DNA from: Natronomonas sp.
GTDB taxonomy: Archaea > Halobacteriota > Halobacteria > Halobacteriales > Haloarculaceae
Length of the DNA stretch: 46,023 nt
Reading direction: 5' to 3'
Assembly (NCBI RefSeq): GCF_028274965.1
Contig: NZ_JAQCNO010000001.1
Coordinates: forward strand, 1 to 46,023
Position 1 is the first letter of the stretch. Every line of letters starts with the position of its first letter. The notes under the pieces were generated by a model. It saw only the letters and a program-made list of their open reading frames with translations, had not been told where the DNA came from and made no database searches. Both the position numbers and the translations under genes were made by a program. Shown here piece after piece: positions 2,972 through 27,209 of this stretch.

Positions 2972-3997
2972 CTACCGCTCGAGTTGGTCTAAGGCCCCGG
3001 CGACCACGAGCGGGAGCGTGATCGTCGCGTCCGCGTAGACGGAGACGCTCTCGGCGTCCGTCTCGAGTTTCCCCCACGAGCGCGCCTCATCAAGCGTCGC
3101 CCCCGAGAGCCCGCCGGTCTGGGGCGCGTCCATCGTCAACTGGACCGCGTAGTCGTACGCGCCGGGCGTGACGAGCATCGTCTGGAGGACGTAGTTCTTC
3201 GGAACGCCGCCCCCGACGACGAACGCCGCCGAGGAGTCCGCCTCGTACGCGAGGTCGTTCAGCGCCGACATGTCCCCCAGCGCGTCCAGCGAGAACCCGG
3301 AGACCTGCGAGCGGAGCCACGCCTGCAGCCCGAGCACCGAGTCCTGGATCGCCGGCGCGTGGATCGGCACGTCGTGTTCGTACGCCGCCGCGGCGATCCC
3401 CGGGTCCTCCGGGACGTCCTCGCGGTCGTTCACTTCCGCGTTCGCCCGCCCGAGTTCGCGCGTGAACGCCGCGATCGGAACGGTCTCTTCGCCGACGGTC
3501 TCGAACACCTCCTCGCGGAGGTGGGTCTCGAAGAGCGCGAAGTGCTCCTGAGGGAGATAGACGTTGTAGATCCGATCGACCTGTTCCTCGCGGAGGCGCT
3601 CGTCGAACGCCGGCCCGTCGTACTCAGGGTGGTCCTCGGTGCCGTGGTGGTGCTTCCCGCCGATGGCCTCGATGGCGTCGTGCGTCAGGTTCGCGCCGGT
3701 CGTCACCAACGCGTCGATGTGGCCCTCGCGGATCAGGTCGGCGACGATCGCCCGCATCCCGGCCGGCACCATCGCGCCGGCGAGCCCGAAAAAGACCGTC
3801 GTCTCCTCGCTGCGGAACATCTCGCCGGTGACGTCGATCGCCTCGGCGACGTTCGCCGCCCCGATCCCCGCCTCCCCGTACTCGGCGGCGAGTTCGGCGA
3901 CGCTCATCCCCGCCGAGACCCGCGCGTGACCGATCGGATCGTGGTCGAACGCCTCCCGATGCGGCGTCTCCGCCGGCTCCGTCTCGTCGTCGCTCAT
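2972..3997 (-). CDS. dys: Deoxyhypusine synthase
   Basis: This 341-residue enzyme transfers an aminobutyl group from spermidine (or, in some archaea, agmatine) to a lysine of translation factor aIF5A, the first step of hypusine formation. Family signatures include ETTVFFGLAGAMVPAGMR, the NAD-site segment TTGANLTHDAIEAIGGKHHHG, and SWGK near the end, where Lys310 corresponds to the catalytic lysine that forms the covalent imine. The length is close to the family norm. A TATA-like GCTTAACG lies 23-30 bases upstream of the ATG, so the transcript is probably leaderless. The presence of the catalytic lysine argues that this is a true synthase rather than an inactive paralogue. Confidence 0.93.
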   Translation of the reverse strand: MSDDETEPAETPHREAFDHDPIGHARVSAGMSVAELAAEYGEAGIGAANVAEAIDVTGEMFRSEETTVFFGLAGAMVPAGMRAIVADLIREGHIDALVTTGANLTHDAIEAIGGKHHHGTEDHPEYDGPAFDERLREEQVDRIYNVYLPQEHFALFETHLREEVFETVGEETVPIAAFTRELGRANAEVNDREDVPEDPGIAAAAYEHDVPIHAPAIQDSVLGLQAWLRSQVSGFSLDALGDMSALNDLAYEADSSAAFVVGGGVPKNYVLQTMLVTPGAYDYAVQLTMDAPQTGGLSGATLDEARSWGKLETDAESVSVYADATITLPLVVAGALDQLER

Positions 3998-4019
3998 GAT
4001 CGTGCCTCGGGCGGCGGCC

Positions 4020-4027
4020 CGTTAAGC
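4020..4027 (-). promoter_or_regulatory. TATA-like box of dys
   Basis: Reads GCTTAACG on the minus strand, 23-30 bases before the dys ATG. This spacing implies transcription starting at or next to the start codon. Confidence 0.5.
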
Positions 4028-4178
4028 CCGCGGATCCGTCGTCGTTCGGTCGCGAGCGAGGCGGGCACGCAGAGGGGGCTCGAAAACTAGTAGTCACACA
4101 GTAATAAATCTGCCGCATCGGCCGAAAACGGCGGAGTACGAGCCTGTGATTGCGATAATACCGGCCGAATGAAGAGTC

Positions 4179-4185
4179 TTTAATA
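4179..4185 (+). promoter_or_regulatory. TATA-like box for the ferredoxin/NrfD operon
   Basis: TTTAATA preceded by purine-rich GAAGAG, a plausible BRE. Initiation would fall at about 4208-4211, which coincides with a GTG/ATG. The transcript either carries a ~460-base leader to the ferredoxin gene or is a leaderless message for the doubtful upstream ORF. Confidence 0.5.
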
Positions 4186-4207
4186 CCGTCGGACCAAATA
4201 GCCAGCC

Positions 4208-4672
4208 GTGATGGCAGCACCCGGTGGCGACTGGCGACCCCTCGCCGATGGATCCCGGACGGCCACGACCGAGCGGGCGTGTTCGGAGGACCCGGGGATC
4301 GGTTCGGGGGCCGCGGCGACCGACCTCGGAGCGGCCCGAGACGGATCGATCGCCGCGCGGACGCTCGCCGATACCACGGGTACTAGCACCGAAACGTCGA
4401 ACACCACCGAAGCGGACGGCGATCCGGTCCCCCGAACCTCCGGCCATCGAGGTATCGGGGCGATCCGATGTCGTCGCGGGGTCCGTTCGGACGGGACGAC
4501 CCCGCGATCCGTCGATCCGGCGGGGACGCGACCCCGACGGTATCTCTCTGCGTTGCTCTCTACGGGACCCGGACACCTCCGGCGGTGCGGCGGTCTTCCG
4601 ATCGCCCGCGCCGGGGTGCCGGCGAACGACAGCCGTGGACGGTCCACGAGCGGAACGGTGATACTCACATGA
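4208..4672 (+). CDS. Doubtful 154-residue ORF ahead of the ferredoxin gene
   Basis: The frame starts with GTG ATG exactly where a leaderless transcript from the TTTAATA box would begin. It ends with a TGA that overlaps the ferredoxin ATG in an ATGA arrangement, both hallmarks of real genes here. Against it: the product is arginine-rich rather than acidic, has no recognisable domain, and about a quarter of third positions are A or T, far more than in neighbouring genes. It may be a leader peptide region, a decayed gene, or a structured untranslated leader. I list it so that the gap is not treated as empty. Confidence 0.25.
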   Translation: MMAAPGGDWRPLADGSRTATTERACSEDPGIGSGAAATDLGAARDGSIAARTLADTTGTSTETSNTTEADGDPVPRTSGHRGIGAIRCRRGVRSDGTTPRSVDPAGTRPRRYLSALLSTGPGHLRRCGGLPIARAGVPANDSRGRSTSGTVILT

Positions 4673-6114
4673 GCAAAGACGACTCTTCCTGTGGCCGCGA
4701 CAGTTGCGGCTGCGGGGAAAACGACGAAACAGCGGACGAATCGTTCCACCCGATGGGTGAGGATTACGAGGAGGAGATGCGGGAGATGCTCGACGACACC
4801 GAGTACGACACCGAACTCGGCATGGATATGGCCGAAGACGCCATGGCCCTCATCCAAGGCGAGATCTCCGAGGCCGAGTTCCACGACAAGTACAACGAGG
4901 CCGTCGTCGAGGAGTTCGATGTCGACGACCGCCCGACGGTCGACGCCTTCGAGGAGATGAACGCCGAGGAGGACGAGAGCATCTTCAAGAAGCTGACCGG
5001 CGGCGGCGACATCGCCGACAAGCTCGCCGGCCTCGACGCCGACACGAGCCAGAGCCGCCGCGACACGATGAAGAAGATGGGCGCCGCGGGCGCCGCGCTC
5101 GGTCTCGGCGGCGTCGCCTCCGCACAGGGGGGCTCCAGCGACCCGAAGGACGACGAGTACGGAGCCAACCCGGTCGGGGACACCTCCGACGAGGGCACGC
5201 AACTCGGGATGGTCATCGACCTCAACCGCTGTGACGGCTGTCTCGAGTGCGTCACCGGCTGCATCGAAGAAAACAACACCTCCTCCGGGGCGAACTGGAT
5301 GTACGTCCTCAGCTACGAGGACGAGAGCACCGAACAGGAGAACTTCCTCGTCCGGCCGTGTCAACACTGCACGAACGCGCCGTGTGAGAAGGTCTGTCCG
5401 GTCCGGGCCCGACACACCCGCGACAAGGACGGCATCGTCCTGACGAACTACGAGACCTGCATCGGCTGTCGGTACTGCCAGGTCGCCTGCCCGTACGGCG
5501 TCAACTACTTCCAGTGGGGCGAGCCCGACACGCCGTTCGACGAGCTGATGGGCGCGGACGGCGACTACGACGAGGACTCGCTCAAGGAGATGGACTACGA
5601 GCAGCGGAACCAGCTCCTCACGGAGAACAACGACCACATCTACGACGAGCGTGGCATGTGGAGCGACAGCCGACCGCCGCAGGGCGTCATGGGCAAATGC
5701 ACCATGTGCCCGACCCGACAGGACGGCCACAGCGGCGAGGAAAAACAGGGGACGGTCGCCTGCATGGAGGCCTGCGACGCGGCGGGCATGAGCGCGATCC
5801 ACTTCGGCGACGTCAACGACCCCGAGAGCCGACCGCGGCAGTACATGCGACAGCGCGCCGAACAGGAGTTCGCCCGCGACACCGAACTCGACAACGGCGA
5901 GCAGTGGGGCGAGACGGTCACGCCGTGGGCGAAGCTCTCGGCGTTCAAACTGCTCGAGGACCTCGGCACCCGGCCGAACATCACGTACCTCGGCAACCAG
6001 CCCGGCCCCGAGGCCGAACAGGTCGAGGGCCCCGTCTCCTACGAGCAGATCGGCGTCACGGACAACAGAAAAGAGCACCTCGACCAGTACACCTTCGGGG
6101 CGGGTGACGACTGA
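4669..6114 (+). CDS. Four-cluster 4Fe-4S ferredoxin subunit with internal Tat signal (HybA/PsrB-like)
   Basis: This 481-residue protein is the likely electron-wire subunit of a membrane redox complex. Residues 1-125 form an acidic N-terminal domain with a cysteine patch (SCGRDSCGCG). At residues 130-155 sits a Tat-type signal, RRDTMKKMGAAGAALGLGG, ending in ASAQGG. Four cysteine groups follow: CDGCLECVTGC, CQHCTNAPCEKVC, CIGCRYCQVAC, and a split CTMC...CMEAC, the standard set for four [4Fe-4S] clusters in the HybA/PsrB/DmsB family. The start MSKDDSSCG is supported by family-like sequence from the first residue. The stop overlaps the next ATG. A Tat signal buried 130 residues in is odd: the N-terminal domain would have to stay in the cytoplasm or be exported with the rest. 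The oxidoreductase it serves is not in this operon. Confidence 0.9.
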   Translation: MSKDDSSCGRDSCGCGENDETADESFHPMGEDYEEEMREMLDDTEYDTELGMDMAEDAMALIQGEISEAEFHDKYNEAVVEEFDVDDRPTVDAFEEMNAEEDESIFKKLTGGGDIADKLAGLDADTSQSRRDTMKKMGAAGAALGLGGVASAQGGSSDPKDDEYGANPVGDTSDEGTQLGMVIDLNRCDGCLECVTGCIEENNTSSGANWMYVLSYEDESTEQENFLVRPCQHCTNAPCEKVCPVRARHTRDKDGIVLTNYETCIGCRYCQVACPYGVNYFQWGEPDTPFDELMGADGDYDEDSLKEMDYEQRNQLLTENNDHIYDERGMWSDSRPPQGVMGKCTMCPTRQDGHSGEEKQGTVACMEACDAAGMSAIHFGDVNDPESRPRQYMRQRAEQEFARDTELDNGEQWGETVTPWAKLSAFKLLEDLGTRPNITYLGNQPGPEAEQVEGPVSYEQIGVTDNRKEHLDQYTFGAGDD

Positions 6115-7451
6115 TGAGCTCGCGAACGCCGAGTTCGGACGACATCGTCCGCCCGATGCAGTCGACCTCGAAGTGGTACTACGTCCTCTTCGGCGTCGCC
6201 AGCCTCCTCGCGCTCGTGTGGTTCGGCCTCTGGTCGATCCAACTCAGCCAGGGGCTCGCGGTCACGAACCTCGCCGACTGGGGTTCCGGCGGCGGCGTCA
6301 CCTGGGGGCTCTACATCGGCGCGTTCATCTGGTGGGTCGGGATCGCCCACGGCGGGATCATCCTCTCGGCCGCCGTCCGACTGTTCGGGATGAAGCGGTA
6401 CCTGCCGGTCGCCCGCCTCGCCGAGCTGCTCACGATCGGCGCGCTGAGCATGGCCGGGATGTACATCGTCATACACGTCGGCCGCCCCGATCGGATCGTC
6501 ACGAGCGTCGTGCAGGCGTACCCGGTGACGGTTCATCAGTCGCCGCTGGTGTGGGACGTGACGGTCATCACGATGTACATGGTGATGACGCTCACGTACC
6601 TCGGTCTCACCGTCCGGTACGACCTCGCGCGGCTCCGTGACGACCTGCCCGACATCCTCGAACCGGTGTACAAGATCGCGACGCTCGGCTACTCCGAGGC
6701 CGAGGACGAGGTCATAGAGCGGATCGTCTGGTGGCTCGCGCTCGGCGTGATCGTCATGGCCCCGCTGTTGTTGCACGGCGGCGTCATCCCGTGGCTGTTC
6801 GCGCTGCTCCCGTCGATGCCCGGCTGGCAGGGGGCCATCCAGGGGCCGCAGTTCCTGACGATCGCGCTCACGTCGGCCATCGCCGGCGTCATCATCCTCG
6901 CGCTCACGGTGCGGCGCGCCTACGACTGGTACCACATCCTCACCGACGACGTGATCCGCGGCCTGACGCTTTGGCTCGGGCTGTTCAGCCTGCTTTTCGT
7001 CTGGCTCCAGCTCCAGCAGGTCATCACGGGCGTCTACGCCGCGCCGCTCGATCAGCGCACGTTCGCGGCGGCGAAGGTCACCGCGCCGGCGTACCAGTTC
7101 GCGATCGGCGTCGTGTTGATCGCGCTGGCGTACATCTTCGCCCAGGCGGTTCGGCCGAGCATCTTCAGCGTCCGCCGCTCGCTCGCGGCCTCGGTGATGG
7201 TGCTCGCCGGAACGCTGACCGAGAAGATCCTCTTCGTCTTCGAGGGGATCGAGTACCCGACGTTCAGCATGTACGCGAACACGCCCGGCGAGTACTTCCC
7301 GAGTCTCATCGAGATCGGGTCGCTCGTCGGAACGATCGCCATGTGTACGCTGTTCTTCATGGTGATACTGAAGGTCGTGCCGGTGATCGAACTCCACGCG
7401 ATCGAGGAACTGCGTGGCGAGGGCCACAGCGCTCCGGGGGATGATGACTGA
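6114..7451 (+). CDS. nrfD: NrfD/PsrC-type integral membrane subunit
   Basis: This 445-residue membrane protein has about ten hydrophobic helices (near residues 21-44, 59-90, 98-123, 140-168, 206-235, 247-270, 282-308, 328-350, 355-377 and 396-425). Early segments contain GGVTWGLYIGAFIWWVGIAHGG, the characteristic first part of NrfD-family proteins that hold the quinone site and dock a ferredoxin subunit. It would exchange electrons between menaquinone and the 4Fe-4S protein encoded just upstream. Its ATG overlaps the upstream TGA and its own TGA shares a base with the next ATG, so the three genes are translationally coupled. No heme-ligating pattern is evident, as expected for this family. 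Confidence 0.92.
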   Translation: MSSRTPSSDDIVRPMQSTSKWYYVLFGVASLLALVWFGLWSIQLSQGLAVTNLADWGSGGGVTWGLYIGAFIWWVGIAHGGIILSAAVRLFGMKRYLPVARLAELLTIGALSMAGMYIVIHVGRPDRIVTSVVQAYPVTVHQSPLVWDVTVITMYMVMTLTYLGLTVRYDLARLRDDLPDILEPVYKIATLGYSEAEDEVIERIVWWLALGVIVMAPLLLHGGVIPWLFALLPSMPGWQGAIQGPQFLTIALTSAIAGVIILALTVRRAYDWYHILTDDVIRGLTLWLGLFSLLFVWLQLQQVITGVYAAPLDQRTFAAAKVTAPAYQFAIGVVLIALAYIFAQAVRPSIFSVRRSLAASVMVLAGTLTEKILFVFEGIEYPTFSMYANTPGEYFPSLIEIGSLVGTIAMCTLFFMVILKVVPVIELHAIEELRGEGHSAPGDDD

Positions 7452-7681
7452 TGGTTGAGTTCGACGCCTGGAACTTCCTCTACCCGGGAACGTGGGTCAT
7501 CTTCGTCGTGATCGGGATTCCGGTGTACACCGCGATCCTCGGGTGGTTCTTCGGCAAGCCCCGCGAGTTGGACAAATCACTGATGGCGCTGACGTACCTG
7601 GTCGGGTTCATCATCTCGATGTGGGTCGGACTGTACGTCCTGACCCAGATCATCGGCGTGGTCTTCCCGATGGCGAGGTAG
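7451..7681 (+). CDS. Small two-helix membrane protein, third subunit of the NrfD complex
   Basis: This 76-residue protein has two hydrophobic stretches, TWVIFVVIGIPVYTAILGWFF and SLMALTYLVGFIISMWVGLYVL, separated by a short charged loop (GKPRELDKS). The start codon overlaps the nrfD stop, making it an obligate co-product. I do not recognise a named family. The context suggests an accessory or stabilising subunit of the ferredoxin/NrfD complex. It is followed by an unusual adenine-free, T-rich stretch that may terminate the operon. Confidence 0.85.
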   Translation: MVEFDAWNFLYPGTWVIFVVIGIPVYTAILGWFFGKPRELDKSLMALTYLVGFIISMWVGLYVLTQIIGVVFPMAR

Positions 7682-16171: not shown

Positions 16172-18490
16172 TCAGCCCCCCTCGGCGGTCCCCGCGGCCA
16201 GCCTCGCGCTCGCGACGACCGCCTGTCCGTACGATAGCCCGCCGTCGCCCGGCGGCACCCGGTCGTGGGCGAGGTACGTCAGCCCGGCGCGCTCGATCCG
16301 CTCGCGGACGCGCCGATCGATCGCGGCGTTGTACGCCACGCCGCCGGTGAACCCGACCGCCCCGAGGCCCCGCTCGGTCGCCGCGTCTATCGCGATCGCC
16401 GCGAGGCCGTCGGCGAGCAGCTGCTGTGCCGTGGCCGCCACGTCCGCCTCCGGGTGTCCTTCGAGTCGGTCGGCCAGCGCGGCTCCCGCCTCGCGGGCGT
16501 CGAGAACCCGCGTTTCGCCCCGCGAGCGGACCGGCGGGTCGAGTCCGAGCGGCTCGCCCGCCCCGGCCGCGGCCTCGAGTCTCATCGCCGGTTCGCCCCG
16601 GTAGCGCCGCTCGGTACAGACGCCACAGAGCGCCGCGGCCGCGTCTAAGAACCGCCCGGCGCTCGTCGTGGGCGGGCTGTTGGGTCCGCCCGTCGCCTGC
16701 TCGAGGACCGCGTCCGCGGCCGTCTCGGACCCCACCGTTTCGCTCTCGAGAAGCAGCGACCGCGCCAGTTTGGGGTCGCTCTCGGCGAGGAGTGCGGCCG
16801 CGACGCGCGGTGGCTCGTGGACGGCCCGCTCGCCGCCGGGCAGCCGGAACCGCGAGAGCCCGCCGACGCGCTCGTAGCCGTCGAGCCCGGCGTCGAGCAC
16901 CTCGCCGCCCCGGACGATCCCTTCGGGGCCGTAGCCGGTGCCGTCAGCGGCGATGACGACCGCGCGCTCTCGGCCCCGCTCGGCCAAGAGCGACGCCGCG
17001 TGGGCGTGGTGGTGCTGGACGGCGACCGTCGGCTCCGGCCGCGCCTCGGCCATCCGCGTCGTCTCCACGTCCGGGTGCATGTCGCGGGCGACGACCGACG
17101 GTTCGACGCCGAGGAGATCGAGCGCCCCCGCGCTCGCGCGCCGGTGCCACGCGGCCGTTTCGGGGCCCGACACGTCGCCGACGTGCTGTGAGAGAACGAC
17201 AGCGTCCCCGCGGGTGGCCGCGACCGTGACGTCCGATCCCGCGCCGACGGCGAGCACCTCCCGGTCCCCGCCGGGCACCACCGGGCGATCGAGCGGTCGG
17301 GGAACGTACCCCCGAGAGCGCCGCAGCACCCGCGATCCGTCGGCGAGGGGCTTCACGACGCTGTCGTCGCAGCGGTTCTCGATCGCCCGGTCGTGTACCA
17401 ACGCGGCGTCGAGGACGTCCCCGAGTTCCAGCAGTTCCTCCGTCGTCGTCGCCATCGGCGCTCCCGGCCGGTTCGCGCTCGTCATCACGAGCGGCCCCGA
17501 GCCGACGGCGTCGAAAAGCAGGTGATGGAGGCCGCTGTGCGGGAGCATGACGCCGACGGTGCCGAGTCCCGGCGACACGCACTCGAGCCACTCCCCGCCC
17601 GCCTTCGGCAACAGCGCGATCGGCCGCCGCTCGTCGGAGAGCAACCCGGGGTCCCGAAGGGTCACAAACGAGCCGGCCGACTCCACCGACCGCGCCATCG
17701 TCGCGAACGGCTTTGCGGGCCGGGCGAGCCGCTCCCGGAGCCGGCCGACCGCCCCGCGATCGCGGGCCCGACAGGCCAGGTGCGTCCCGCCGGCGCCTTT
17801 GACCCCGACGATCGCGCCCCGGTTCAGGCGCTCGGCGGCCGCCTCGATAGCCGCAGCGCCCGTCGCTTCGCGCTCCCCGTCGGCGACGAGAGACAGCGTC
17901 GGCCCGCAGACGGGACAGGCGATCGTCTGTGCGTGAAACCGGCGGTCGGTCCGGTCGCGGTACGCCGCCTCGCAGTCCGGACACGGCTCGAAGGCGGCGA
18001 GTGCGGTTTCGGCTCTGTCGTACGGGAGCCCGCGGGTGATCGAGAACCGCGGGCCGCACTCCACGCAGGCGGTCGCCCAGTAGCCCTCGAACCGCGAGTT
18101 CGGGTCGCGCATATCGCCGAGACACGACGCGCAGACGGCGGTATCCGGCGGTACGAGCGCCGCGCGTTCGTCGCTGCCGGTCGAGTCCTCGATCCGGAAC
18201 GACGCGTCCCCGCGACAGTCGGCCCGCTCGACCGACACGCCGTCGATCCGGGCGAGCCGCGGCGGGTCCGTCCGGATCGCCTCGACGGCGCGATCGACGG
18301 CCGACGGCGGCCCCTCGAGACGCGCGAGGACGCCGCTGTCGGTGTTCCTGACGCGGCCGGCGAGTCCGCGATCGGCGGCGATGCGGGCCACGAAGGGCCG
18401 GAAGCCGACGCCCTGGACCGTCCCGGTGACGGTGACACGGACCGCCGTTCGGTCCGGGCCCGTCGACTCAGCGGCGGCGTTCGTCGGCAC
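16172..18490 (-). CDS. hypF: [NiFe]-hydrogenase maturation carbamoyltransferase HypF
   Basis: This 772-residue cytoplasmic enzyme makes the thiocarboxamide on HypE that becomes cyanide of the NiFe(CN)2CO centre. Domains in order are an acylphosphatase-like region (TGTVQGVGFRPFVAR, 22-36), two zinc fingers (C120/C123/C142/C145 and C170/C173/C192/C195), a YrdC-like carbamoyl-adenylation domain (about 205-390), and a Kae1-like domain with AVQHHHAHAASLL, the metal-binding HHxxH set. The length is slightly above the bacterial norm of ~750. Translation probably starts at GTG 18490, overlapping the end of hypB by 23 bases. It is the last gene of the operon. Confidence 0.95.
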   Translation of the reverse strand: MPTNAAAESTGPDRTAVRVTVTGTVQGVGFRPFVARIAADRGLAGRVRNTDSGVLARLEGPPSAVDRAVEAIRTDPPRLARIDGVSVERADCRGDASFRIEDSTGSDERAALVPPDTAVCASCLGDMRDPNSRFEGYWATACVECGPRFSITRGLPYDRAETALAAFEPCPDCEAAYRDRTDRRFHAQTIACPVCGPTLSLVADGEREATGAAAIEAAAERLNRGAIVGVKGAGGTHLACRARDRGAVGRLRERLARPAKPFATMARSVESAGSFVTLRDPGLLSDERRPIALLPKAGGEWLECVSPGLGTVGVMLPHSGLHHLLFDAVGSGPLVMTSANRPGAPMATTTEELLELGDVLDAALVHDRAIENRCDDSVVKPLADGSRVLRRSRGYVPRPLDRPVVPGGDREVLAVGAGSDVTVAATRGDAVVLSQHVGDVSGPETAAWHRRASAGALDLLGVEPSVVARDMHPDVETTRMAEARPEPTVAVQHHHAHAASLLAERGRERAVVIAADGTGYGPEGIVRGGEVLDAGLDGYERVGGLSRFRLPGGERAVHEPPRVAAALLAESDPKLARSLLLESETVGSETAADAVLEQATGGPNSPPTTSAGRFLDAAAALCGVCTERRYRGEPAMRLEAAAGAGEPLGLDPPVRSRGETRVLDAREAGAALADRLEGHPEADVAATAQQLLADGLAAIAIDAATERGLGAVGFTGGVAYNAAIDRRVRERIERAGLTYLAHDRVPPGDGGLSYGQAVVASARLAAGTAEGG

Positions 18491-19301
18491 GGTTCGCCCC
18501 GCTACCGTGATCGTGGTCGTGGTCGTAGCCGTCGCCGTGGCTCTCGGGCCCCCGATCGAGCAGACGGCGGAGCCGATCGATCCCCGCTCCGGTCTCCGCG
18601 CTCGTCGCGACGACCGGCGTCTCCGGGGCGATAGCCCGGGCGTCCTCCCGCATTCGCGCGACGTCCGCGCCGACCGCGCCGGCGATGTCGGTCTTGTTGA
18701 TGACGACGAGATCGCACGCCTGAAACACCAGCGGGTGCTTCCGGACCACGTCGTCGCCCTCGGTGACGCTGACGACGACGACCCGAAGCGACGCCCCGAG
18801 CGGGAAGTCGGCCGGGCAGACCATGTTGCCGACGTTCTCGACGAAGAGGCGGTCGAGCCCGCCGAGATCGAGTTCGTCGATCGCCCGCCCGACGCGCGCC
18901 GGATCGAGGTGGCAGTCCGTCCCCGTCGTCACGTCGACGACCGGGACGCCGTGGCTCCGGTAGCGCGTCGCGTCGTCGTCGCCGGCCACGTCGCCGGCGA
19001 TGACGGCCGCTCGCTCCCCGTCAGGCCGTCGGTCGAGAAGCGCCTCGACGAGCGCCGTCTTCCCGCTGCCGGTCGCTCCGAGGAACTCCGCGGCAAAGAC
19101 GCCGCCGTCGCGGGCCAACCGCTTGTGGACCGCCGCCGCCTCCCGCTCGACCGCGGCGAGGACGTCCGCCTCGGCCTCGCCGTCCGACGGGGCGGACCCG
19201 CCTTCGCCGTGACCGAACCGGTGTGCCCGGACGGCGGATAGAATCGGTTCAACTGCGTTTCGAAGCGTCGCGTCGACTCCGCGTTTGGGTGCGTGTCTCA
19301 T
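18468..19301 (-). CDS. hypB: Hydrogenase nickel-insertion GTPase HypB
   Basis: This 277-residue SIMIBI-class GTPase inserts nickel into the large subunit together with HypA. Walker A is EFLGATGSGKTALVEALL (residues 72-89), and the nucleotide-site metal segment is TTGTDCHLDPARV. LFVENVGNMVCPADFPLG carries the nickel-binding cysteine, and LVVINKTDIAGAVG gives guanine specificity. The C-terminus is histidine/aspartate-rich (HGDGYDHDHDHG), a nickel store usually found at the N-terminus of bacterial HypB. ATG at 19301 overlaps the hypA stop as ATGA; the frame extends upstream but with shadow sequence. Confidence 0.95.
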   Translation of the reverse strand: MRHAPKRGVDATLRNAVEPILSAVRAHRFGHGEGGSAPSDGEAEADVLAAVEREAAAVHKRLARDGGVFAAEFLGATGSGKTALVEALLDRRPDGERAAVIAGDVAGDDDATRYRSHGVPVVDVTTGTDCHLDPARVGRAIDELDLGGLDRLFVENVGNMVCPADFPLGASLRVVVVSVTEGDDVVRKHPLVFQACDLVVINKTDIAGAVGADVARMREDARAIAPETPVVATSAETGAGIDRLRRLLDRGPESHGDGYDHDHDHGSGANRADERRR

Positions 19302-19678
19302 TGTTCCGTCTCCGTTCGCTCGGGTATCTCGATGGCGCTGAGGCGGCACTCCCGGCCGGCGCGCAACGACAGCCGGCGCCCACAGTCGGGACAGCGGAGC
19401 GAGGGCGCGTCGGGCACGACGCCGTCGATCGGCTCCGTCGGCCCGGACCACCCGCACTCGCAGGCCCCGGCCGGCTCGACGCGATCGAACTCGACGGTCG
19501 CCTCCGCGGCCGCCGTTCCCTCCGTGATCGCGTCGAGACAGAACCGGAGTTGATCCGCGGTCAGGTGGGTCGCGGTCCCGAGTTCGACCGTCAGGCGGTC
19601 GATGCGCCCGGCGTTTCGCTCGCTCGCCGCCTCGAGCGCCGCCTCCAGCAGTCGGTTCGCCGCGGTCAGTTCGTGCAT
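19298..19678 (-). CDS. hypA: Hydrogenase nickel metallochaperone HypA
   Basis: This 126-residue protein starts MHELTAANRLLEAAL, the Met-His-Glu N-terminus that binds nickel; this fixes the start at 19678 rather than the Met ten codons upstream. The zinc domain is unusual: the first pair is CEC (C73, C75, one residue between) rather than CxxC, and the second is the normal CPDC (C96, C99). It ends with RLSAIEIPE like other HypA proteins. It sits 1 base after hypE and overlaps hypB, within the nine-gene operon. The CxC pair may be a haloarchaeal variant. Confidence 0.93.
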   Translation of the reverse strand: MHELTAANRLLEAALEAASERNAGRIDRLTVELGTATHLTADQLRFCLDAITEGTAAAEATVEFDRVEPAGACECGWSGPTEPIDGVVPDAPSLRCPDCGRRLSLRAGRECRLSAIEIPERTETEQ

Positions 19679-19679
19679 C

Positions 19680-20729
19680 TCAACAGATCCGCGGGCGCTG
19701 TTCGCCACTCGGTTCGGTGAGGTATCGCTCTCCGATCCCGGTGTCGACGACGACCCGGCCGCCGTGCTCCGCGACCGCCCGCCCGACGAGCGCCGCCTCC
19801 GTCCCGCCGGCCGCCCGGAGCGCCGACAGGACGTCCTCCGCGTCGCCCTCGTCGACGCCGAGCACCATCCGCCCCTCGCAGGCGATCTTCAGGGGATCCA
19901 GCCCGAGGACGTCGGCGACCGTTTCCGTCGCGTCGTCGACCGGGACGGCCCGCTCGTCGAGGCGGACCCCGACGCCGCTCCGTTCGGCGAACTCGACGAG
20001 CGCGGTCGCCACCCCGCCGCGGGTCGGGTCCGTCGCCGCGGTCACCGTCCCGGCGTCCACCGCGGCCGCGACGAGGTCGTTGACCGGCGCGACGTCGCTT
20101 TCGAGGTCGGCGTCGAACCCGAACGACTCCCGCTCGGCGAGCAGGGCGACGCCGTGGTCGCCGACCGGCCCGGTGACGAGGAGCCGGTCGCCCGGCGAGA
20201 GCCCGGCGACCGGGAGTTCGGCTCCCTCCTCGATCCGGGCGACGCCGGCCGTGTTGACGACGATCCCGTCGAGATCGCCGCGAGGCATGACCTTCGTGTC
20301 GCCCGTCGTGATCGGCGCGTCCGCGGCCGACGCGGTCTCGGCCATCGAACCGAGGACGCTCTCGACGGCGGCCGTCGGGGTTCCGGCCTCGACGACGAGC
20401 CCGCAGGTGAGCGTCTCCGGCTCGGTCGCCCCCATCGCCGCGAGGTCGTTGACCGTCCCGGCGACCGCGAGCCGCCCGACGTCGCCGCCGGCGAAGAACG
20501 GCGGATCGACGACGTGGCTGTCGGTCGTCACGACGAGCGCGCCGTCGCCGGTCGGCAGGACCGCTCCGTCGTCCAAGGCGTCGATCCCGATCCCGTCGGC
20601 CGGCGAGTCACCCCGGAACCGGGGCACGACGGCGTCGGACAGCAGCTCGCGCATCCGCTCGCCGCCCGCGCCGTGGGCCGCGGTGACCGTTTCGTCGCCG
20701 TCGGCCATCGGGTCCGCGCGCTCGCTCAT
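19680..20729 (-). CDS. hypE: Hydrogenase maturation protein HypE (cyanide-forming dehydratase)
   Basis: This 349-residue PurM-like ATPase converts the carbamoylated C-terminal cysteine to a thiocyanate that becomes the Fe-bound cyanide. Signs are TAAHGAGGERMRELL, VVTTDSHVVDPPFF, VNDLAAMGATP-like VNDLAAMGATEPETL, TGDTKVMPRGDLDG, DPTRGGVATALVEF and the diagnostic C-terminus PRIC, whose cysteine is the reactive one. Start MSERADP is chosen because its ATG overlaps the hypD stop as ATGA; an internal MADGD start is possible. The length fits the family. Confidence 0.95.
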   Translation of the reverse strand: MSERADPMADGDETVTAAHGAGGERMRELLSDAVVPRFRGDSPADGIGIDALDDGAVLPTGDGALVVTTDSHVVDPPFFAGGDVGRLAVAGTVNDLAAMGATEPETLTCGLVVEAGTPTAAVESVLGSMAETASAADAPITTGDTKVMPRGDLDGIVVNTAGVARIEEGAELPVAGLSPGDRLLVTGPVGDHGVALLAERESFGFDADLESDVAPVNDLVAAAVDAGTVTAATDPTRGGVATALVEFAERSGVGVRLDERAVPVDDATETVADVLGLDPLKIACEGRMVLGVDEGDAEDVLSALRAAGGTEAALVGRAVAEHGGRVVVDTGIGERYLTEPSGEQRPRIC

Positions 20730-21841
20730 CGCCCTCGGACCTCCCCGAACTCGCGTTTGATCCGACAGGGGCCCTCGTCGCTGACCATGCACGCGCCGAC
20801 GGGGTCCGCCGGCGTGCACTCGTCGCCGAACAGCGGGCAGTCCGACGGCGTCGCGTGTCCGGCCATGATCTCCCCGCAGAGACACTCGCTCTCGCGGTGA
20901 TCGCCGCCCGGGGGATCGATCTCGAATCGCTCGCTCGCGTCGTAGGCGGCGTACTCCGACCGGATCGATAGCGTCGCGTCCGGCACCTCAGCGATCCCGC
21001 GCCACCGCCCCGGGACGCGCTCGAAGACCTCCCACAGCGCCGCCGCCGCGGCCGCGTTGCCGTCCTCGCTGACGCACCGCGGGTACGCGTTCTCGACGCC
21101 CGCCGAGCCCTCGGCGACCGACTCGACGACCTCGAGTAACGCGTACAGGACGTCGATCGGCTCGAACCCGCCGACGACGACGGGGATGTCGTGGGCTTCG
21201 GCGATCGGCTCGTAGACGCCCGCCCCCGTGATCGTCGCGGCGTGACCGGCCGCGAGAAAGCCGTCGACGCGGGTGTCCGGATGGGCCGCGACGACGTCCA
21301 TCGCCGGCGGGATGTACTTGTGCGCCGAGAGCACGGAGAAGTTCGACGGCGGACCGTCCCGGAGCACGCTCGCCGTCGGCGCCGCCGTCGTCTCGAACCC
21401 GACGCCGAAGAACACGACCTCACCGTCGGTCTGCTCGGCGAGGGCGACGGCCTCGTCGGCGCTGTAGACGACCCGGACGTCCGCGCCGCGATCGCGGGCG
21501 TCCGCGAGGCTCCCGTTGTGGCTCGGCACGTCGATCATGTCGCCGTACGTCGCAACGGTGTGGCCCGCCTCGGCGAGGGCGACGGCCTCGGCGATCTCCG
21601 CGCTGTCGGTGACACAGACCGGACAGCCGGGCCCCATGGCGACGGTCAACCCCTCGGGCAGCACGCTCCTGATGCCGAACTCGGCGATCGTCTCCTCGTG
21701 GGTGCCGCAGACGTGAACGATCCGGACCGGCTCCTCGAGACCGGCCAGACGCTCCTCGAGGCGATCCCGGAGCGCGCTCGCCCGGTCGGGATCGCGGAAC
21801 TCGAGTTCGTCCAGACCGGACTCGGGTTCGGCGCCCGTCAC
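20726..21841 (-). CDS. hypD: Hydrogenase maturation Fe-S scaffold HypD
   Basis: This 371-residue protein carries the growing Fe(CN)2CO unit with HypC. VRIVHVCGTHEETIAEFGI contains the catalytic Cys45 and GTH motif. AMGPGCPVCVTD (C73, C76) and FFGVGFETTAAPTA are the other core motifs. The 4Fe-4S ligands lie in ECLCGEIMAG, DCPLFGDEC and GACMVSDEGPC near the C-terminus. Translation starts at GTG 21841, overlapping the hypC stop by four bases. All expected cysteines are present, so an active protein is likely. Confidence 0.95.
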   Translation of the reverse strand: MTGAEPESGLDELEFRDPDRASALRDRLEERLAGLEEPVRIVHVCGTHEETIAEFGIRSVLPEGLTVAMGPGCPVCVTDSAEIAEAVALAEAGHTVATYGDMIDVPSHNGSLADARDRGADVRVVYSADEAVALAEQTDGEVVFFGVGFETTAAPTASVLRDGPPSNFSVLSAHKYIPPAMDVVAAHPDTRVDGFLAAGHAATITGAGVYEPIAEAHDIPVVVGGFEPIDVLYALLEVVESVAEGSAGVENAYPRCVSEDGNAAAAAALWEVFERVPGRWRGIAEVPDATLSIRSEYAAYDASERFEIDPPGGDHRESECLCGEIMAGHATPSDCPLFGDECTPADPVGACMVSDEGPCRIKREFGEVRGR

Positions 21842-22167
21842 GGGCGTTCACCTCCTCTTTCATCCCCACCCCTGCTTTCGCCTCCGCCCTCGGCGGTCGC
21901 CGGGCGACCGACGCCGCCGAGGCCTCCGGCCGCCGCGTCGGGGCCCTCGCCGCCCTTGATCGCGGACTCGTACAGCTCGATCGTCCGTTCGACCTGCGCT
22001 TCGGGGATCTTCCGGATGGCGAACCCGGCGTGGGTGAGCACGTAATCGCCCACGTCGACGTCGCTTCCGACGATGTCGATCCGCACCTCCTTTTTGGCGC
22101 CGCCGAAATCGACGGTCGCCTCGACGCCGTCGATCGAGCTGACCTCTCCGGGGACGCCGAGACACAT
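21838..22167 (-). CDS. hypC: Hydrogenase assembly chaperone HypC
   Basis: This 109-residue protein has the invariant N-terminus MCLGVPGEV, whose Cys2 (after Met removal) holds the Fe(CN)2CO precursor with HypD. The barrel continues ATVDFGGAKKEVRIDIVG and DYVLTHAGFAIRKIPEAQ. The ordinary domain ends near residue 75. A glycine/glutamate-rich disordered tail of about 35 residues follows, which bacterial HypC lacks. The ATG shares a base with the stop of the protease gene, and the stop overlaps hypD. Confidence 0.94.
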   Translation of the reverse strand: MCLGVPGEVSSIDGVEATVDFGGAKKEVRIDIVGSDVDVGDYVLTHAGFAIRKIPEAQVERTIELYESAIKGGEGPDAAAGGLGGVGRPATAEGGGESRGGDERGGERP

Positions 22168-22814
22168 CACTCGACACCCCCTTCCGGCCTCTCGCCCGCG
22201 TTGTGGCTCTCGCCCGCCTCCCAGGGATCCCCCGAGAGGAGCCGCTCGGGTCGGAGTCTGCCTCTGACGCTGTGCCCCTGTCGCTCGTGGTCGTCGACCG
22301 CTTCGGCCTCGATCTCGGCCTCGCAGTCGACGCAGTACCAACTGGCGTTCATGAATCGGTCACCACCGCTCGGCCGGTCGGCCGTCCGCTCGGCGTCGAC
22401 GGCGGCGGCTAAGTCCGGAACGATCCGCTCGATCGACGGGCTCAGGCCGACGGCCGGTTCGATCCGCGCCGGAACGACGCCGACGACGGCGACGCGCTCC
22501 GGGAGGTCGTAGGCGCTCCGACAGCGCCGGATCGCCGAGGCGAACGTGAAATCGTGCATCAGCACCTCGGCCGCCGCGCCGTCGTCGTCCGCCCGCACCC
22601 GATGGATCGTCCCCGGCGGGCCCTCGGCGTCGATCGCGTCCACGACGACCGCCCGGCTCGCGCCGTCCATCGCCTCCAAGGCGAGAAGCGCCGTCGTGCC
22701 GACGAAGGCCGTCTCCGGCCCGCCGTCGTTCGCGCCGTCGAGCTCCCGAACGACGGCCCTCGCGACGCCGTCGTCGCCCATCGTCGGGTTCCCCACGCCG
22801 ACGACGACCGCCAT
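22167..22814 (-). CDS. Hydrogenase maturation endopeptidase with C-terminal C2H2-like zinc finger
   Basis: Residues 1-145 of 215 are a HyaD/HybD/HycI-type protease that cuts the C-terminal peptide from the nickel-loaded large subunit. VGVGNPTMGDDGVARAV provides the acidic nickel ligand (Asp14/15), VVVDAIDAEGPPG the second (Asp59), and EVLMHDFTFASAI the histidine (His87). Residues 155-215 form a separate module: YCVDCEAEIEAEAVDDHERQGHSV has C161, C164, H176 and H181 in C-x2-C-x11-H-x4-H spacing, close to a classical C2H2 finger. No stop codon separates them, so they read as one protein; an internal ATG at 22352 could also make the finger alone. The ATG overlaps the large-subunit stop. Confidence 0.9.
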   Translation of the reverse strand: MAVVVGVGNPTMGDDGVARAVVRELDGANDGGPETAFVGTTALLALEAMDGASRAVVVDAIDAEGPPGTIHRVRADDDGAAAEVLMHDFTFASAIRRCRSAYDLPERVAVVGVVPARIEPAVGLSPSIERIVPDLAAAVDAERTADRPSGGDRFMNASWYCVDCEAEIEAEAVDDHERQGHSVRGRLRPERLLSGDPWEAGESHNAGERPEGGVE

Positions 22815-24331
22815 CACTCGCCCCCCGGAGCGTGCGGTTCGATCGTCGTCTCGAAGGACTCGCCGCCCCCGTGGACGTGGACGCCGCAGCCGAGACAGGG
22901 GTCGAACGAGCGGATCGTCCGCATCACGTCGATCGGGGCGGAGACGTCGGGCACGGGGATCCCCTCGGCGGCCGCCTCGAAGACGCTCGGCTCGCCGTCG
23001 GCGTCGCGGGGTCCGAGGTTCCACGTCGTCGGGGTGATGAGCTGATAGCCCGTCACCTCCCCGTCGGTGACCTCGACCCAATGCGAGAGCGCCCCCCGCG
23101 AGGCGCCCCAGAAGCCGACGCCGCGCCCCGAGAACTCGTCGTTCCAACTCGCCGTCGTCTCCCCAGAGGGGTCGAGCGCGTCGAGCCACTCCAGTACGTA
23201 CTCCCGGACGAGAAGCAGCTCCTGGACGCGAGCGGCGAGGCGGTTGAACGTGTTCGATCGCCGCCTACCGCCGCCGAGGGACTCCCGGAGTCGCCCCGGA
23301 TCGCGCTCGGCGGCGACGAGCCGCGCCAGCGGCCCCGTCTCCATCGAGTCGCCCTCGAACCGCGGCGCCTTCCCCCAGGAGTACGCGTCGGGCTTTTCGG
23401 GGGCCGGCTCCGGCGGCGGCGAGTCCCCCGGCGAGCCGCCGGAGTCCTCGGTGTACCAGGCGTGCGAAACGTCCTCGGTGATGCCCTCGACGAGTTCCTC
23501 GCGCGTCGGGCGGGTGAGCGTTCCGTCCCGGTAGATCCCGGGCGGCAACACGAGCGACTCGTCGCCGGTCCCGTAGAACATCCCGTTCGCGTAGAACCGC
23601 CCCGGGCCGACGCCGAACCCGTCGGCGCCCTCCTCGGCGGCGGCGACGAGCACCGAGCAGACGTCGTACAGCCCCGGCGCTCGGTCGGTCGGGCCGCGCC
23701 GGTCGCGGGCCCGCTCGATCGTCGCCTCGAGTTCCCCGGTCGGGCCGAGCCACTCGTCGAGCGCCGCCATCGTCTCTGTGACCTCCTCGATTGTCTCCGG
23801 GTCCGGGTCAGAGACGACGCCGCCCGGCGCGTACGTGAGCGGGTGGGGTGCCCGCCCACCGAACTCGGAGAAGCCCTGTAGCAGGCGGCGCTGTTGATCC
23901 AGCGCCGCCCGGTAGCCGTCGCCCTCGACGGGATCGAGGCGGGCGAACCCGGTGTCGGCGACCGCGTCGCTGTAGTCCGGCCCCGCGAGGGTGAACAGGT
24001 GGATCGCGTGGTTCCAAAGCAGGAACATCCCCTCCATGATGTCCCGGAGCAACCGCCCGGTCTCCGGGACGGATCCGAAGACCCCGGCGCGTCTGGCCGC
24101 GTCCTCGATAGCGAGGATCGACGCCTGCCGGTGGCAGGTAAAACAGACGCCGCAGACCATCTGGGTCACCTGCGGGACGTCGGAGGGTCGGCGACCGAGG
24201 ACGATGCTCTCGATGCCCCGGAACATGTTCATCTCGCTTTCGGCGCGGACGACCCGCCCGTCCGCCACGGAGAGCGTCGTGCTGTGGTGTCCTTCGATGC
24301 GCGTCGTCGGATCGATCTCGATTTCCGGCAT
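22814..24331 (-). CDS. [NiFe]-hydrogenase large subunit
   Basis: This 505-residue catalytic subunit splits or forms H2. MPEIEIDPTTRIEGHHSTTL leads to VCGVCFTCH (C60, C63 as nickel ligands, H67). GRAPHPLTYAPGGV, SWGKAPRFEGDSMETGPLAR, GASRGALSHWVEV and LITPTTWNLGPRD are all family landmarks. The second cysteine pair is SFDPCLGCGVH (C479, C482), followed by a 20-residue tail (486-505) that the adjacent protease would remove after H485. The residue before VCG is Met rather than the usual Arg of RICG, and APRGALGHW reads ASRGALSHW. ATG 24331 is preferred over an upstream open stretch that is arginine-rich. It lies ten bases after the small subunit. Confidence 0.95.
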   Translation of the reverse strand: MPEIEIDPTTRIEGHHSTTLSVADGRVVRAESEMNMFRGIESIVLGRRPSDVPQVTQMVCGVCFTCHRQASILAIEDAARRAGVFGSVPETGRLLRDIMEGMFLLWNHAIHLFTLAGPDYSDAVADTGFARLDPVEGDGYRAALDQQRRLLQGFSEFGGRAPHPLTYAPGGVVSDPDPETIEEVTETMAALDEWLGPTGELEATIERARDRRGPTDRAPGLYDVCSVLVAAAEEGADGFGVGPGRFYANGMFYGTGDESLVLPPGIYRDGTLTRPTREELVEGITEDVSHAWYTEDSGGSPGDSPPPEPAPEKPDAYSWGKAPRFEGDSMETGPLARLVAAERDPGRLRESLGGGRRRSNTFNRLAARVQELLLVREYVLEWLDALDPSGETTASWNDEFSGRGVGFWGASRGALSHWVEVTDGEVTGYQLITPTTWNLGPRDADGEPSVFEAAAEGIPVPDVSAPIDVMRTIRSFDPCLGCGVHVHGGGESFETTIEPHAPGGE

Positions 24332-24341
24332 GGGTTCGGTC

Positions 24342-25586
24342 TCAGTGCTCCGCCGACGGTCGATCGACGCCTCGGACGATCGATCCGCCGTCGGTGTGTC
24401 TGTCGTACAACCATACGAACGGTGCCAGCGGCGCGAGCGGAACGAGGACGACGGCCATCGCACAGGCGAGCGCGATCCCCGGGAGGCTGCGCGGCGCGTC
24501 GGGGAGCGACGCGGCGACACCGGGGCCGTCGTTTCGGTCGGTCCCGCCCGCTTCCGGCCGGTCGGGCGGATCGGCGCGTCCCGTCCCGTCGTCGTCGCGC
24601 GTGTTCGAATAGAACGGGCTGAACCGGTCCCAAAACGCCGGCTCGACGCAGCCGATACAGGGCGCGCCGACGTTCCGACAGACCGTCGTCCCGCCGTTTC
24701 TGAGCCGCATCGACCCGTCGCAGTGGGCGTACACCCCCGCGCAGCCGACGTCGTACAGGCAGCCGCCGTCGCCCGGCTCGGCGGCGAACTCGAAGCACTC
24801 GTAGTCCTCGCGGAGTTCGCAGTCGTCGTGAACCAGCGGACCGAAAAGCGGCAGCGGTCGGTTGTACTCGTCGAGCGCGACGCCGTGGCCGTTGAGAACG
24901 GTCGCGAGCGTCAGTATCAGGTGTTCGGCGTACAGCGGACAGCCGGCGACGTTGATGACGGGAAGCCCCGCGTCGGTCCGAAACGCCGGGCCGAAGACGC
25001 CGCCGGGGTCCTCGCCGTCGAACTGCAGCCCGCGGGCCCCGGTCGGGCTCTCGCCGACCTCGTTGCTGTCGTGCCGTCCGGCGGCCGGCAGCCCCCCGAA
25101 GGCCGCACAGCTGCCGGCGGCGATGACGACGTCCGCGCGCTCGCCGAGTTCGATGACCCAATCGAGGACCGGCTTCGGGTTCCCCTGCTCGTCCACGCCG
25201 AGCGTCGCGGCCCGGGGGATCCTCGTCGGGATCGCCCCCTCGACAATGAGCACGTCCGGGCCCTCCGCGAGCCCGTCGACGGCGGCGTCGCCCGACGGCT
25301 CCATGAGCGTCGAGTGAAAACTGACCCGTTCGCGGAGCTCGCTGAGCGTCTCCTCGATCGCCGGCGAGTCGCTCTGGAGGAACGACATCGTACACCCCGA
25401 GCAGCTCTGTCCCTGCACCCAGGCGACGCCCGCGGACCCGTCGATACCGCCCCGGAGCGCAGAAACGATTTCCGTGCCGTACTCGCTGACGACCGCCCCG
25501 GCCTCGCTTCGGTCGACGAGTCGGAGGAAGTCCGGACCGGTCGGTGCGGGTTCCTGCCGCGGCTGGCGTGGAGGCTCTGTTGACAT
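24342..25586 (-). CDS. [NiFe]-hydrogenase small subunit, no Tat signal, C-terminal membrane helix
   Basis: This 414-residue electron-transfer subunit carries proximal-cluster ligands C62, C65 (SCSGCTMSF), C160 (AAGSCAAFGG) and C216 (VAGCPLY). Distal ligands are H253, C256, C276 and C282. Medial-cluster ligands are C289, C310 and C313, with a fourth cysteine C303 at the position of the conserved proline, predicting a [4Fe-4S] rather than [3Fe-4S] medial cluster. The proximal motif is CSGC, not the double-cysteine form of oxygen-tolerant enzymes. A hydrophobic helix spans about 370-394, but the N-terminus (MSTEPPRQPRQEPAPTG) has no twin-arginine signal, and none appears in the upstream in-frame codons before a stop. 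It is first in the operon. Confidence 0.95.
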   Translation of the reverse strand: MSTEPPRQPRQEPAPTGPDFLRLVDRSEAGAVVSEYGTEIVSALRGGIDGSAGVAWVQGQSCSGCTMSFLQSDSPAIEETLSELRERVSFHSTLMEPSGDAAVDGLAEGPDVLIVEGAIPTRIPRAATLGVDEQGNPKPVLDWVIELGERADVVIAAGSCAAFGGLPAAGRHDSNEVGESPTGARGLQFDGEDPGGVFGPAFRTDAGLPVINVAGCPLYAEHLILTLATVLNGHGVALDEYNRPLPLFGPLVHDDCELREDYECFEFAAEPGDGGCLYDVGCAGVYAHCDGSMRLRNGGTTVCRNVGAPCIGCVEPAFWDRFSPFYSNTRDDDGTGRADPPDRPEAGGTDRNDGPGVAASLPDAPRSLPGIALACAMAVVLVPLAPLAPFVWLYDRHTDGGSIVRGVDRPSAEH

Positions 25587-26288: not shown

Positions 26289-26519
26289 CTACTCCATCGC
26301 AACGTACGTTCGGGTGTCCTCGACGCCCGACAGCGACTGGATCGCGTCGGCGGCGATCTCCTTGACCTCCGCGGGCGAGTCGACCTCGACTTTCGTGATG
26401 ATGTCGACGTCCCCGGCGACGATGTGCGCGGAGACGACGCCGCCGATCGCCTCGATGTCGTCTCTGAGCCGCCCGGCCTTCCCCGTGTGGGCCTTGACCA
26501 TGATGTAGGCGACGACCAT
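26289..26519 (-). CDS. Stand-alone Lrp/AsnC RAM domain protein (ligand-binding only)
   Basis: This 76-residue protein consists only of the beta-alpha-beta effector domain of Lrp/AsnC regulators: MVVAYIMVKAHTGKAGRLRD, IVAGDVDIITKVEVDS and a final DTRTYVAME. There is no helix-turn-helix, so it cannot bind DNA alone; it may sense an amino acid and act through a partner. It starts three bases after trkA ends, in the same operon. A second copy with the same layout lies on the other side of trkA at 27334. Confidence 0.92.
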   Translation of the reverse strand: MVVAYIMVKAHTGKAGRLRDDIEAIGGVVSAHIVAGDVDIITKVEVDSPAEVKEIAADAIQSLSGVEDTRTYVAME

Positions 26520-26522
26520 CGC

Positions 26523-27209
26523 TCAGACACCCCCGTCGGCGAGCGCGCGGCTGGTGTCGCCGGCGATGATCTGCTCGACCTCCCGGAGGACGCTGAAGTC
26601 GGCGATCACGATCAGCCGGTCGCCAGACTCCAGCGAGGCGTCGGCGTCGGGGAGCCCGAGCTGTCCGCCCTCCTTGCCGAACGCGAGGAGCCGCGAATCG
26701 GCCGGCAGCTCCAACTCGGACAGCGAGTACCCCCGCATCGGCGACCCGGACGTGATCGTCAACTCGACGAGCTGGAGGTTCCGGGCGATGTCGGCGACGG
26801 CCCGGACGCTGCCCCCGACGAGGGCGTTCTTGGCGGCGATCGCGCCGAGCCGTTCGGGGTAGATCACCTCGTCGACGTCGCCCGCGTACTTCCCGACGAC
26901 GTACTCGCGTTCGTCGCTTTCGGCCCGGAGGACGGTCCGACAGCCGTGGCGTTTGCCGACCATGCAGGCGATGATGTTGGTCGCGAAGTCGCCGGTGAGA
27001 CCGGCGATCCCGTCGACGCTGTCGAGGTCCCGGGACAGAAGCGTCGATTCCTCGCTGCCGTCGCCCTCGATGACGTCGAACCCGGCCTCCCGGAACCGCT
27101 CGGCTTTCGTCACGTCGGACTCGACGATGACGACCTCGTGGTCCTCCTCGCGAAGCACGCGAGCGGTCCGCGTTCCGACCCGGCCGGCACCGACGATAAC
27201 GAATTTCAT
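26523..27209 (-). CDS. trkA: TrkA-type potassium transport regulator
   Basis: This 228-residue cytoplasmic protein has an RCK_N domain, MKFVIVGAGRVGTRTARVL, a Rossmann GxGxxG fold that binds NAD(H) or ATP/ADP, with D/E ligands in VIVESD. The RCK_C domain near residue 140-220 includes LPADSRLLAFGKEG and SGDRLIVIADFSVL. Such proteins gate Trk/Ktr K+ channels in the membrane, central to salt-in osmoadaptation of haloarchaea. No channel gene lies in the window. The gene is divergent from an Lrp-like gene and followed by another. Confidence 0.9.
   Translation of the reverse strand: MKFVIVGAGRVGTRTARVLREEDHEVVIVESDVTKAERFREAGFDVIEGDGSEESTLLSRDLDSVDGIAGLTGDFATNIIACMVGKRHGCRTVLRAESDEREYVVGKYAGDVDEVIYPERLGAIAAKNALVGGSVRAVADIARNLQLVELTITSGSPMRGYSLSELELPADSRLLAFGKEGGQLGLPDADASLESGDRLIVIADFSVLREVEQIIAGDTSRALADGGV

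Follow-up and report, generated by a model that had tools for sequence, protein, structure and literature searches.

A haloarchaeal [NiFe]-hydrogenase branch with a decayed Tat signal and no cytochrome b seems to have moved inside the cell

A complete hydrogenase operon in Natronomonas

We analysed a stretch of 46,023 nucleotides from Natronomonas sp. (NCBI RefSeq assembly GCF_028274965.1, contig NZ_JAQCNO010000001.1, positions 1 to 46,023; hereafter the window), which carries a [NiFe]-hydrogenase operon on its minus strand, running from 25586 to 16172. Nine open reading frames (ORFs) follow one another in an unbroken run, in the order small subunit, large subunit, maturation protease and HypC-D-E-A-B-F, with gaps in gene order of +10, -1, -1, -4, -4, +1, -4 and -23 bases (range -23 to +10). 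An earlier sequence-only reading of the window had proposed this nine-gene operon, and its coordinates and gene names proved right when Pfam and NCBIfam profiles were run on each ORF:

24342..25586, minus strand: small subunit, 414 amino acids (aa); PF01058, PF14720 (6e-22); Fe-S cysteines kept
22814..24331, minus strand: large subunit, 505 aa; PF00374 (6.3e-79); CGVC and DPCLGCGVH motifs; relatives among solved structures
22167..22814, minus strand: maturation protease of the HycI/HyaD type that continues in frame into a C2H2-like mini-protein (215 aa in all); PF01750, TIGR00072
21838..22167, minus strand: HypC; PF01455 (2.9e-24)
20726..21841, minus strand: HypD; PF01924 (1.3e-124)
19680..20729, minus strand: HypE; TIGR02124 (4e-102, above cut-off)
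19298..19678, minus strand: HypA; PF01155 (4e-20)
18468..19301, minus strand: HypB with a His/Asp-rich tail; TIGR00073 (2.7e-67, above cut-off)
16172..18490, minus strand: HypF; TIGR00143 (1e-205, above cut-off)

With every ORF matched at such E-values, chance resemblance is out of the question. The gene content given by the earlier reading holds for the nine ORFs, but it overlooked that the protease ORF encodes a second module, a mini-protein of 61 aa. The predicted enzyme has the hallmarks of a [NiFe] hydrogenase. The two CxxC nickel-ligand motifs of the large subunit are present, CGVC close to the N-terminus and DPCLGCGVH at the C-terminus, the latter followed by a 20-residue tail for proteolytic cleavage. 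The small subunit retains the cysteines of the proximal, medial and distal clusters: all 11 Cys columns common to at least 33 of 34 related rows (types A and B, below) are Cys in the window. The host draft genome (2.28 Mb, 94% complete) yielded no second large subunit in a PF00374 search.

Distribution and descent of two haloarchaeal types

PF00374 detected large subunits of several types in 41 genomes out of 391 sampled for the class, and in 20 of 86 genera. Hydrogenases are thus a minority trait in Halobacteria, as the sequence-only reading had it in calling them uncommon, but they are not rare. Our genome searches scored only the best first-look candidates per genome, and the absences reported here hold at that sensitivity.

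Most related loci fall into two types. Type A (24 loci) comprises exported enzymes with an adjacent cytochrome b, HydC. Type B was found in 10 genomes from six genera: that of the window, Halovenus carboxidivorans, Halorientalis regularis, G367, G295, G124, G391, G069, G178 and G258. In the last three it is a second copy beside a type-A hydrogenase elsewhere in the genome; these second copies (L124, L130, L131) are bare small-large subunit pairs, and neither the protease nor the Hyp proteins were matched within their 19-kb stretches. Counts of the two types omit L003, L004 and L105 (the same loci as L132, L134 and L121), L183 (short, N-terminus uncovered), L106 (34% identity, used as outgroup), L136-L142 (type C), L143-L145 (other types) and the group-V loci L113 and L120, which are tallied apart. 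Group V (G089, G318) has Tat-bearing small subunits and no HydC, and its C-terminal cluster domain is replaced by Arg/Ser-rich sequence, repetitive in L113; the missing Cys motifs are also absent from the other two forward frames. Type C (G298, G118, G264, G290, G220, G281, G240) is a second haloarchaeal type with 26-29% identity to the window's enzyme. Its one tested member, L139, scored 468 bits against the group-1h HofG structure 5aa5, and one carrier, G220, belongs to the window's genus. A hydrogenase like type C is mentioned for Halopiger in an excerpt of PMC11018855.

For the phylogeny we concatenated the cores of both subunits (45 rows), excluding signal and tail except for the leading stretch of L107, which was lost to the column filter. 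Twelve non-halophile loci were compared, of which eight entered the tree as outgroup together with L106; L008, L022, L024, L036 and L049 were left out. Trees of single subunits and those for the approximately unbiased (AU) test used four outgroup rows. Both subunits of the window fall in a haloarchaeal clade of 36 rows (support 100/100) together with the exported, cytochrome-b-linked HydABC; the alternative of a grouping with non-hydrogenase relatives, raised by the earlier reading as a check, is not what the tree gives. The ten type-B loci form a clade (100/100), recovered by the large subunit alone and the small subunit alone (Shimodaira-Hasegawa-like approximate likelihood ratio test, 98 and 99). 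Its sister is L107, a type-A enzyme (97/94). We do not claim as proven that type B arose within type A, given the AU test reported below.

In seven type-B pairs the ratio of nonsynonymous to synonymous substitution (dN/dS) of the large subunit was 0.12-0.27, with similar values for the small-subunit core; by these ratios the large subunit is under purifying selection. Profile matches, intact motifs and this selection uphold the earlier description of a [NiFe] hydrogenase that is complete and comes with a maturation set of its own. A change at the first nickel-ligand motif (QMVCGVC) was dropped as a hallmark of type B, since the arginine is missing from type-A rows as well, L107 among them.

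The Tat signal has decayed in type B

Exported hydrogenases of the clade carry a twin-arginine translocation (Tat) signal on the small subunit. The corresponding stretch in the window is:

25488..25538, minus strand: decayed Tat-signal segment, small-subunit residues 17-33, aligned with the type-A Tat segments

The N-terminal segment reads GPDFLRLVDRSEAGAVV in the window, against RRNFLRLVGSTAAGGVI in a type-A member; in the aligned part, the window has GPDFLRLVDRSEAG and Halorientalis RPDFLELVREREAG. Twin arginines stand at the aligned position in 24/24 type-A and 2/2 group-V small subunits and in none of the ten of type B, so that a Tat signal is present in all 26 related haloarchaeal loci outside clade B. 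The hydropathy of the 15 residues after the FL/FT pair ranges from -0.99 to -0.05 in type B and from 0.31 to 0.93 in type A. These 15 residues include four to eight charged or His residues in every type-B member, compared with zero to three in type A (24 small subunits with RRxFL). A longer reading of the small subunit is not available in the window, where no in-frame ATG, GTG or TTG lies further upstream. Judged from the alignment, the twin arginine and the hydrophobic core are gone in type B while the segment itself persists. Because six of the nine outgroup rows in the tree carry RRxF (L005, L006, L007, L009, L019 and L021), loss of the motif in type B is the simpler, if unproven, account.

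The cytochrome b subunit is missing

HydC adjoins the large subunit in all 24 type-A loci and in none of the 10 of type B (24/26 for the loci outside B overall). Type B stands alone in seven genomes, one of which (G391) is 78% complete, and a search with the HydC protein gave no hit at E<=1e-3 in any of them; two type-A control genomes were matched. Likewise, PF01292 (cytochrome b561 family) scored above cut-off in 0/7 B-alone genomes versus 9/9 type-A genomes searched. The sequence-only reading took the gene set as enough for a working H2-activating enzyme and as a sign of lithotrophic or fermentative H2 metabolism. That the set would suffice for lithotrophic growth is not supported: the operon lacks the cytochrome b of published operons, searches of the genome did not turn it up, and the small subunit has a decayed Tat signal.

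Alignment columns fixed in type B and absent from type A include W->R, M->V and Y->H. We take the first two to lie near the medial-cluster cysteines and the third near the proximal ones, going by the fold of such subunits. A docking face changed at these residues would fit the loss of cytochrome b.

The small subunit ends in a hydrophobic tail

The small subunit of the window continues beyond its last cluster cysteines into a candidate membrane anchor:

24405..24488, minus strand: residues 367-394, a candidate hydrophobic anchor at the C-terminus with 28 consecutive uncharged residues and a Kyte-Doolittle maximum over 20 residues of 2.27

Such tails occur in nine of ten type-B members, with 28-31 uncharged residues, a 20-residue maximum of 1.77-2.70 and a mid-tail break of the form P-(L/A)-(A/L)-P. 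The type-A segment past the last cluster cysteines is weakly hydrophobic and Ala/Gly-rich (20-residue maximum 0.68-1.60). AlphaFold2, run with ten sequences, gave two short tail helices of low confidence (368-384 and 387-397); the best fold matches of the model are hydrogenase small subunits.

A mini-protein is fused to the maturation protease

The protease ORF reads without a stop into a module of 61 residues that shows a C-x2-C...H-x4-H pattern and a conserved RPxRLL:

22167..22352, minus strand: mini-protein module alone, 61 aa from an internal ATG, WYCxDC...HExxGHxVRG..RPxRLL

No Pfam family matched it. The mini-protein is present in 7/7 type-B operons and in 23 of 24 type-A loci, the 24th being a short stretch; within the stretches taken, the group-V loci have neither it nor Hyp genes. 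Type-A operons encode it as a small gene of its own, which sits between those for the protease and HypC and is annotated "hypothetical protein" in Natrarchaeobaculum. Fusion to the protease is found in six of the seven type-B operons (the exception being L172) and in 0/23 type-A loci. Among 392 searched genomes of the phylum, 13 matched, eight at E<1e-25 and five weakly (3.6e-9 to 9.9e-4), and all eight strong ones also carry a hydrogenase of the window's kind. Its fusion to the protease suggests that the mini-protein acts in hydrogenase maturation.

Comparison with known hydrogenases

HydABC with adjacent maturation genes has been published for haloarchaea, as excerpts of PMC5437934 and PMC6176080 report, the latter assigning it to HydDB group 1a. 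Compared with the HydABC of Natrarchaeobaculum and Halodesulfurarchaeum, the window has the same gene order except for HydC, the same maturation genes and the mini-protein, and its large subunit is 58% identical to the Natrarchaeobaculum plasmid copy. Unlike HydABC, it has no HydC, no Tat motif, a strongly hydrophobic tail and a protease fused to the mini-protein. The operons of Halovenus carboxidivorans and Halorientalis regularis, which belong to other genera (80% and 73% large-subunit identity), match the window in all of Tat loss, HydC absence and fusion. For Halovenus carboxidivorans, an excerpt of PMC9765009 deals with the oxidation of CO and not with the hydrogenase.

The window's operon itself belongs to a kind known in the class; what seems novel, on the sequence comparison, is a Tat-less, cytochrome-less and seemingly relocated branch. 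We found no such haloarchaeal hydrogenase in the open-access literature searched, partly among the top matches listed, which is no proof of absence.

The small subunits of Huc (group 2a) and group-1h enzymes are likewise not known to carry a Tat signal. Huc (7utd) is the best match of the window's small subunit both in sequence and in fold; the fold match comes from a weak model (TM-scores 0.43/0.54). The best solved-structure relatives of the large subunit are NiFeSe enzymes: it scored 219 bits against a NiFeSe enzyme, 172 against Huc and 103 against group-1h HofG, so that, judged by bit scores, it is not closer to Huc or HofG than to other group-1 enzymes. The window's enzyme may work in a similar way to Huc and group-1h enzymes.

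The earlier reading had also tied the operon to sulfur- or H2-using anaerobes. In excerpts of PMC6176080, Natrarchaeobaculum strains with hydrogenase gain energy from anaerobic H2 oxidation and do not use H2 aerobically. This tie comes from type-A species. All ten type-B genomes have a gene for haem-copper oxidase subunit I. It is also present in 16 of the 18 other hydrogenase-bearing genomes searched, with no match in G001 and G007 (type A), and oxygen use is therefore no mark of type B.

Genomic surroundings

The order of the window's genes at 26.3-34.3 kb is kept in two of seven same-genus stretches (G036, G037); the other five share only a TrkA-Lrp pair, plus at most one or two genes. In the window (26289-27209) and in G295 of another genus (L133/L196), the type-B operon adjoins this same pair in opposite orientation; the arrangement may point to a preferred insertion site or to an inversion.

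Further away, at 4468-7681 on the plus strand, lie genes for an FeS protein with an internal Tat-like motif and for two membrane proteins, NrfD and one of 76 aa, a module that resembles DsrO/DsrP and subunits of alternative complex III. We considered it as the hydrogenase's electron partner and rejected it, since close copies of the NrfD gene (63-90% identity) occur in G036, G037, G099 and G288, four genomes of the same genus that gave no hydrogenase match. Aerobic CO dehydrogenase, considered as a constant companion under a trace-gas scenario, was rejected too: one of ten type-B genomes passed the TIGR02416 cut-off, and the window's genome scored 703 bits, below the cut-off of 991. Beside the type-A operon of G346 (L107, 12510-15239), we noted by eye ORFs resembling an anaerobic CO dehydrogenase and a CooC-like ATPase. 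Near type-B operons, an ORF of 213-218 aa recurs close to HypF in L128 and L134, with a similar one upstream of the L133 operon, and L133 also has a nearby ORF (3930-4271) that by eye resembles a ferredoxin.

Where the type-B enzyme would work

We think it rather probable, on the sequence comparisons above, that the window's enzyme is a working group-1 [NiFe] hydrogenase that shared its ancestor with the exported, cytochrome-b-linked uptake enzyme of haloarchaea and moved to the inside of the cell. A fuller account, which we offer tentatively, is that the hydrogenase changed sides: Tat signal and cytochrome b were lost, the old signal was kept in the mature protein, the tail became the enzyme's own anchor, and electrons pass to the respiratory membrane. 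Maturation of [NiFe] enzymes is cytoplasmic. HypA-F and the protease would mature the dimer in the cytoplasm, where, with the signal lost, it would remain; in nine of ten members its own tail would hold it on the inner face of the membrane. H2 would then be split inside, with protons released there, and the distal cluster would hand the electrons on to menaquinone or to another acceptor that faces the cytoplasm or is cytosolic, feeding respiration.

The absence of both Tat signal and cytochrome b would also suit a cytosolic, possibly bidirectional hydrogenase that exchanges electrons with a soluble carrier such as a haloarchaeal ferredoxin. Such an enzyme would act as a redox valve or release H2 in fermentation, and the tail would be no more than a tether. 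The tail-less basal member L172 and the ferredoxin-like ORF seen by eye near the L133 operon (3930-4271) fit this idea. We hold it possible but doubtful: nine of ten members have a strong tail with the P-(L/A)-(A/L)-P break, no carrier or flavin-subunit neighbour is conserved across the type-B loci, and the closest kin are uptake enzymes. Continued export, through the degenerate signal or together with another Tat protein and with a different quinone-reactive subunit, would fit the FL and G-V residues that most members still have in the old segment, and the RRPDFL of L128 and L133. The four to eight charged or His residues that follow FL/FT in all ten make export improbable, and no conserved carrier neighbour was seen, although the signals of neighbours were not scanned.

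Regulatory H2 sensors of the HupUV/HoxBC kind (group 2b) are not known to have a Tat signal, a cleavable large-subunit tail or a protease. The missing export signal and the bare second-copy pairs beside type A in G069, G178 and G258 recall such sensors. In six genomes, including the window's, type B is, however, the only [NiFe] large subunit found, which leaves a sensor nothing to regulate; a cleavable 20-residue tail and a protease are present, and the kinship is with group 1. A sensor role is therefore very improbable. It is hardly credible that the operon is a non-functional remnant. Decay might begin with the loss of signal and cytochrome b, and the small subunit evolves fast at both ends, but nine ORFs are intact, motifs are kept, large-subunit dN/dS is low and the type spans six genera.

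Several observations weigh against relocation as set out above. The location of the enzyme is a prediction, and the division into A and B was made only once the traits had been seen. A single type-A clade is not rejected by the AU test (p 0.33). L128 and L133 have a twin arginine one position closer to the N-terminus (RRPDFL), and the outgroup rows L106, L013 and L037 lack RRxF. Across five wider pairs, amino-acid identity is 37-52% in the N segment and 27-44% in the tail against 70-80% in the core; both ends evolve faster, and neither is tightly conserved. Since the basal L172 has no tail, the anchor is not general in type B, and the small-subunit model (mean predicted local distance difference test score 59.7) is weak and cannot settle topology. 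Partial sub-threshold PF01292 matches of 64-73 positions exist in the window's genome (73, on contig C22) and in G367. The Tat motif is retained in the group-V loci L113 and L120 although HydC is missing there, so that the two losses are not strictly coupled. No conserved neighbour qualifies as electron acceptor or partner at the ten type-B loci, which differ in length, and NrfD gave no match at E<=1e-20 in five of seven type-B genomes searched, so that FeS-NrfD is not co-distributed with type B.

If the type-B hydrogenase did relocate, nature would have carried out an experiment in moving a metalloenzyme from one side of the membrane to the other: its sisters are exported, its old signal can still be read as a fossil, and its membrane partner is lost. 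Oxidation of H2 inside the cell would alter the energetics, protons being released inside rather than outside, and would raise the question of how an enzyme of two subunits, with no cytochrome, connects to the respiratory chain. The relocation is testable, since some type-B members are in culture.

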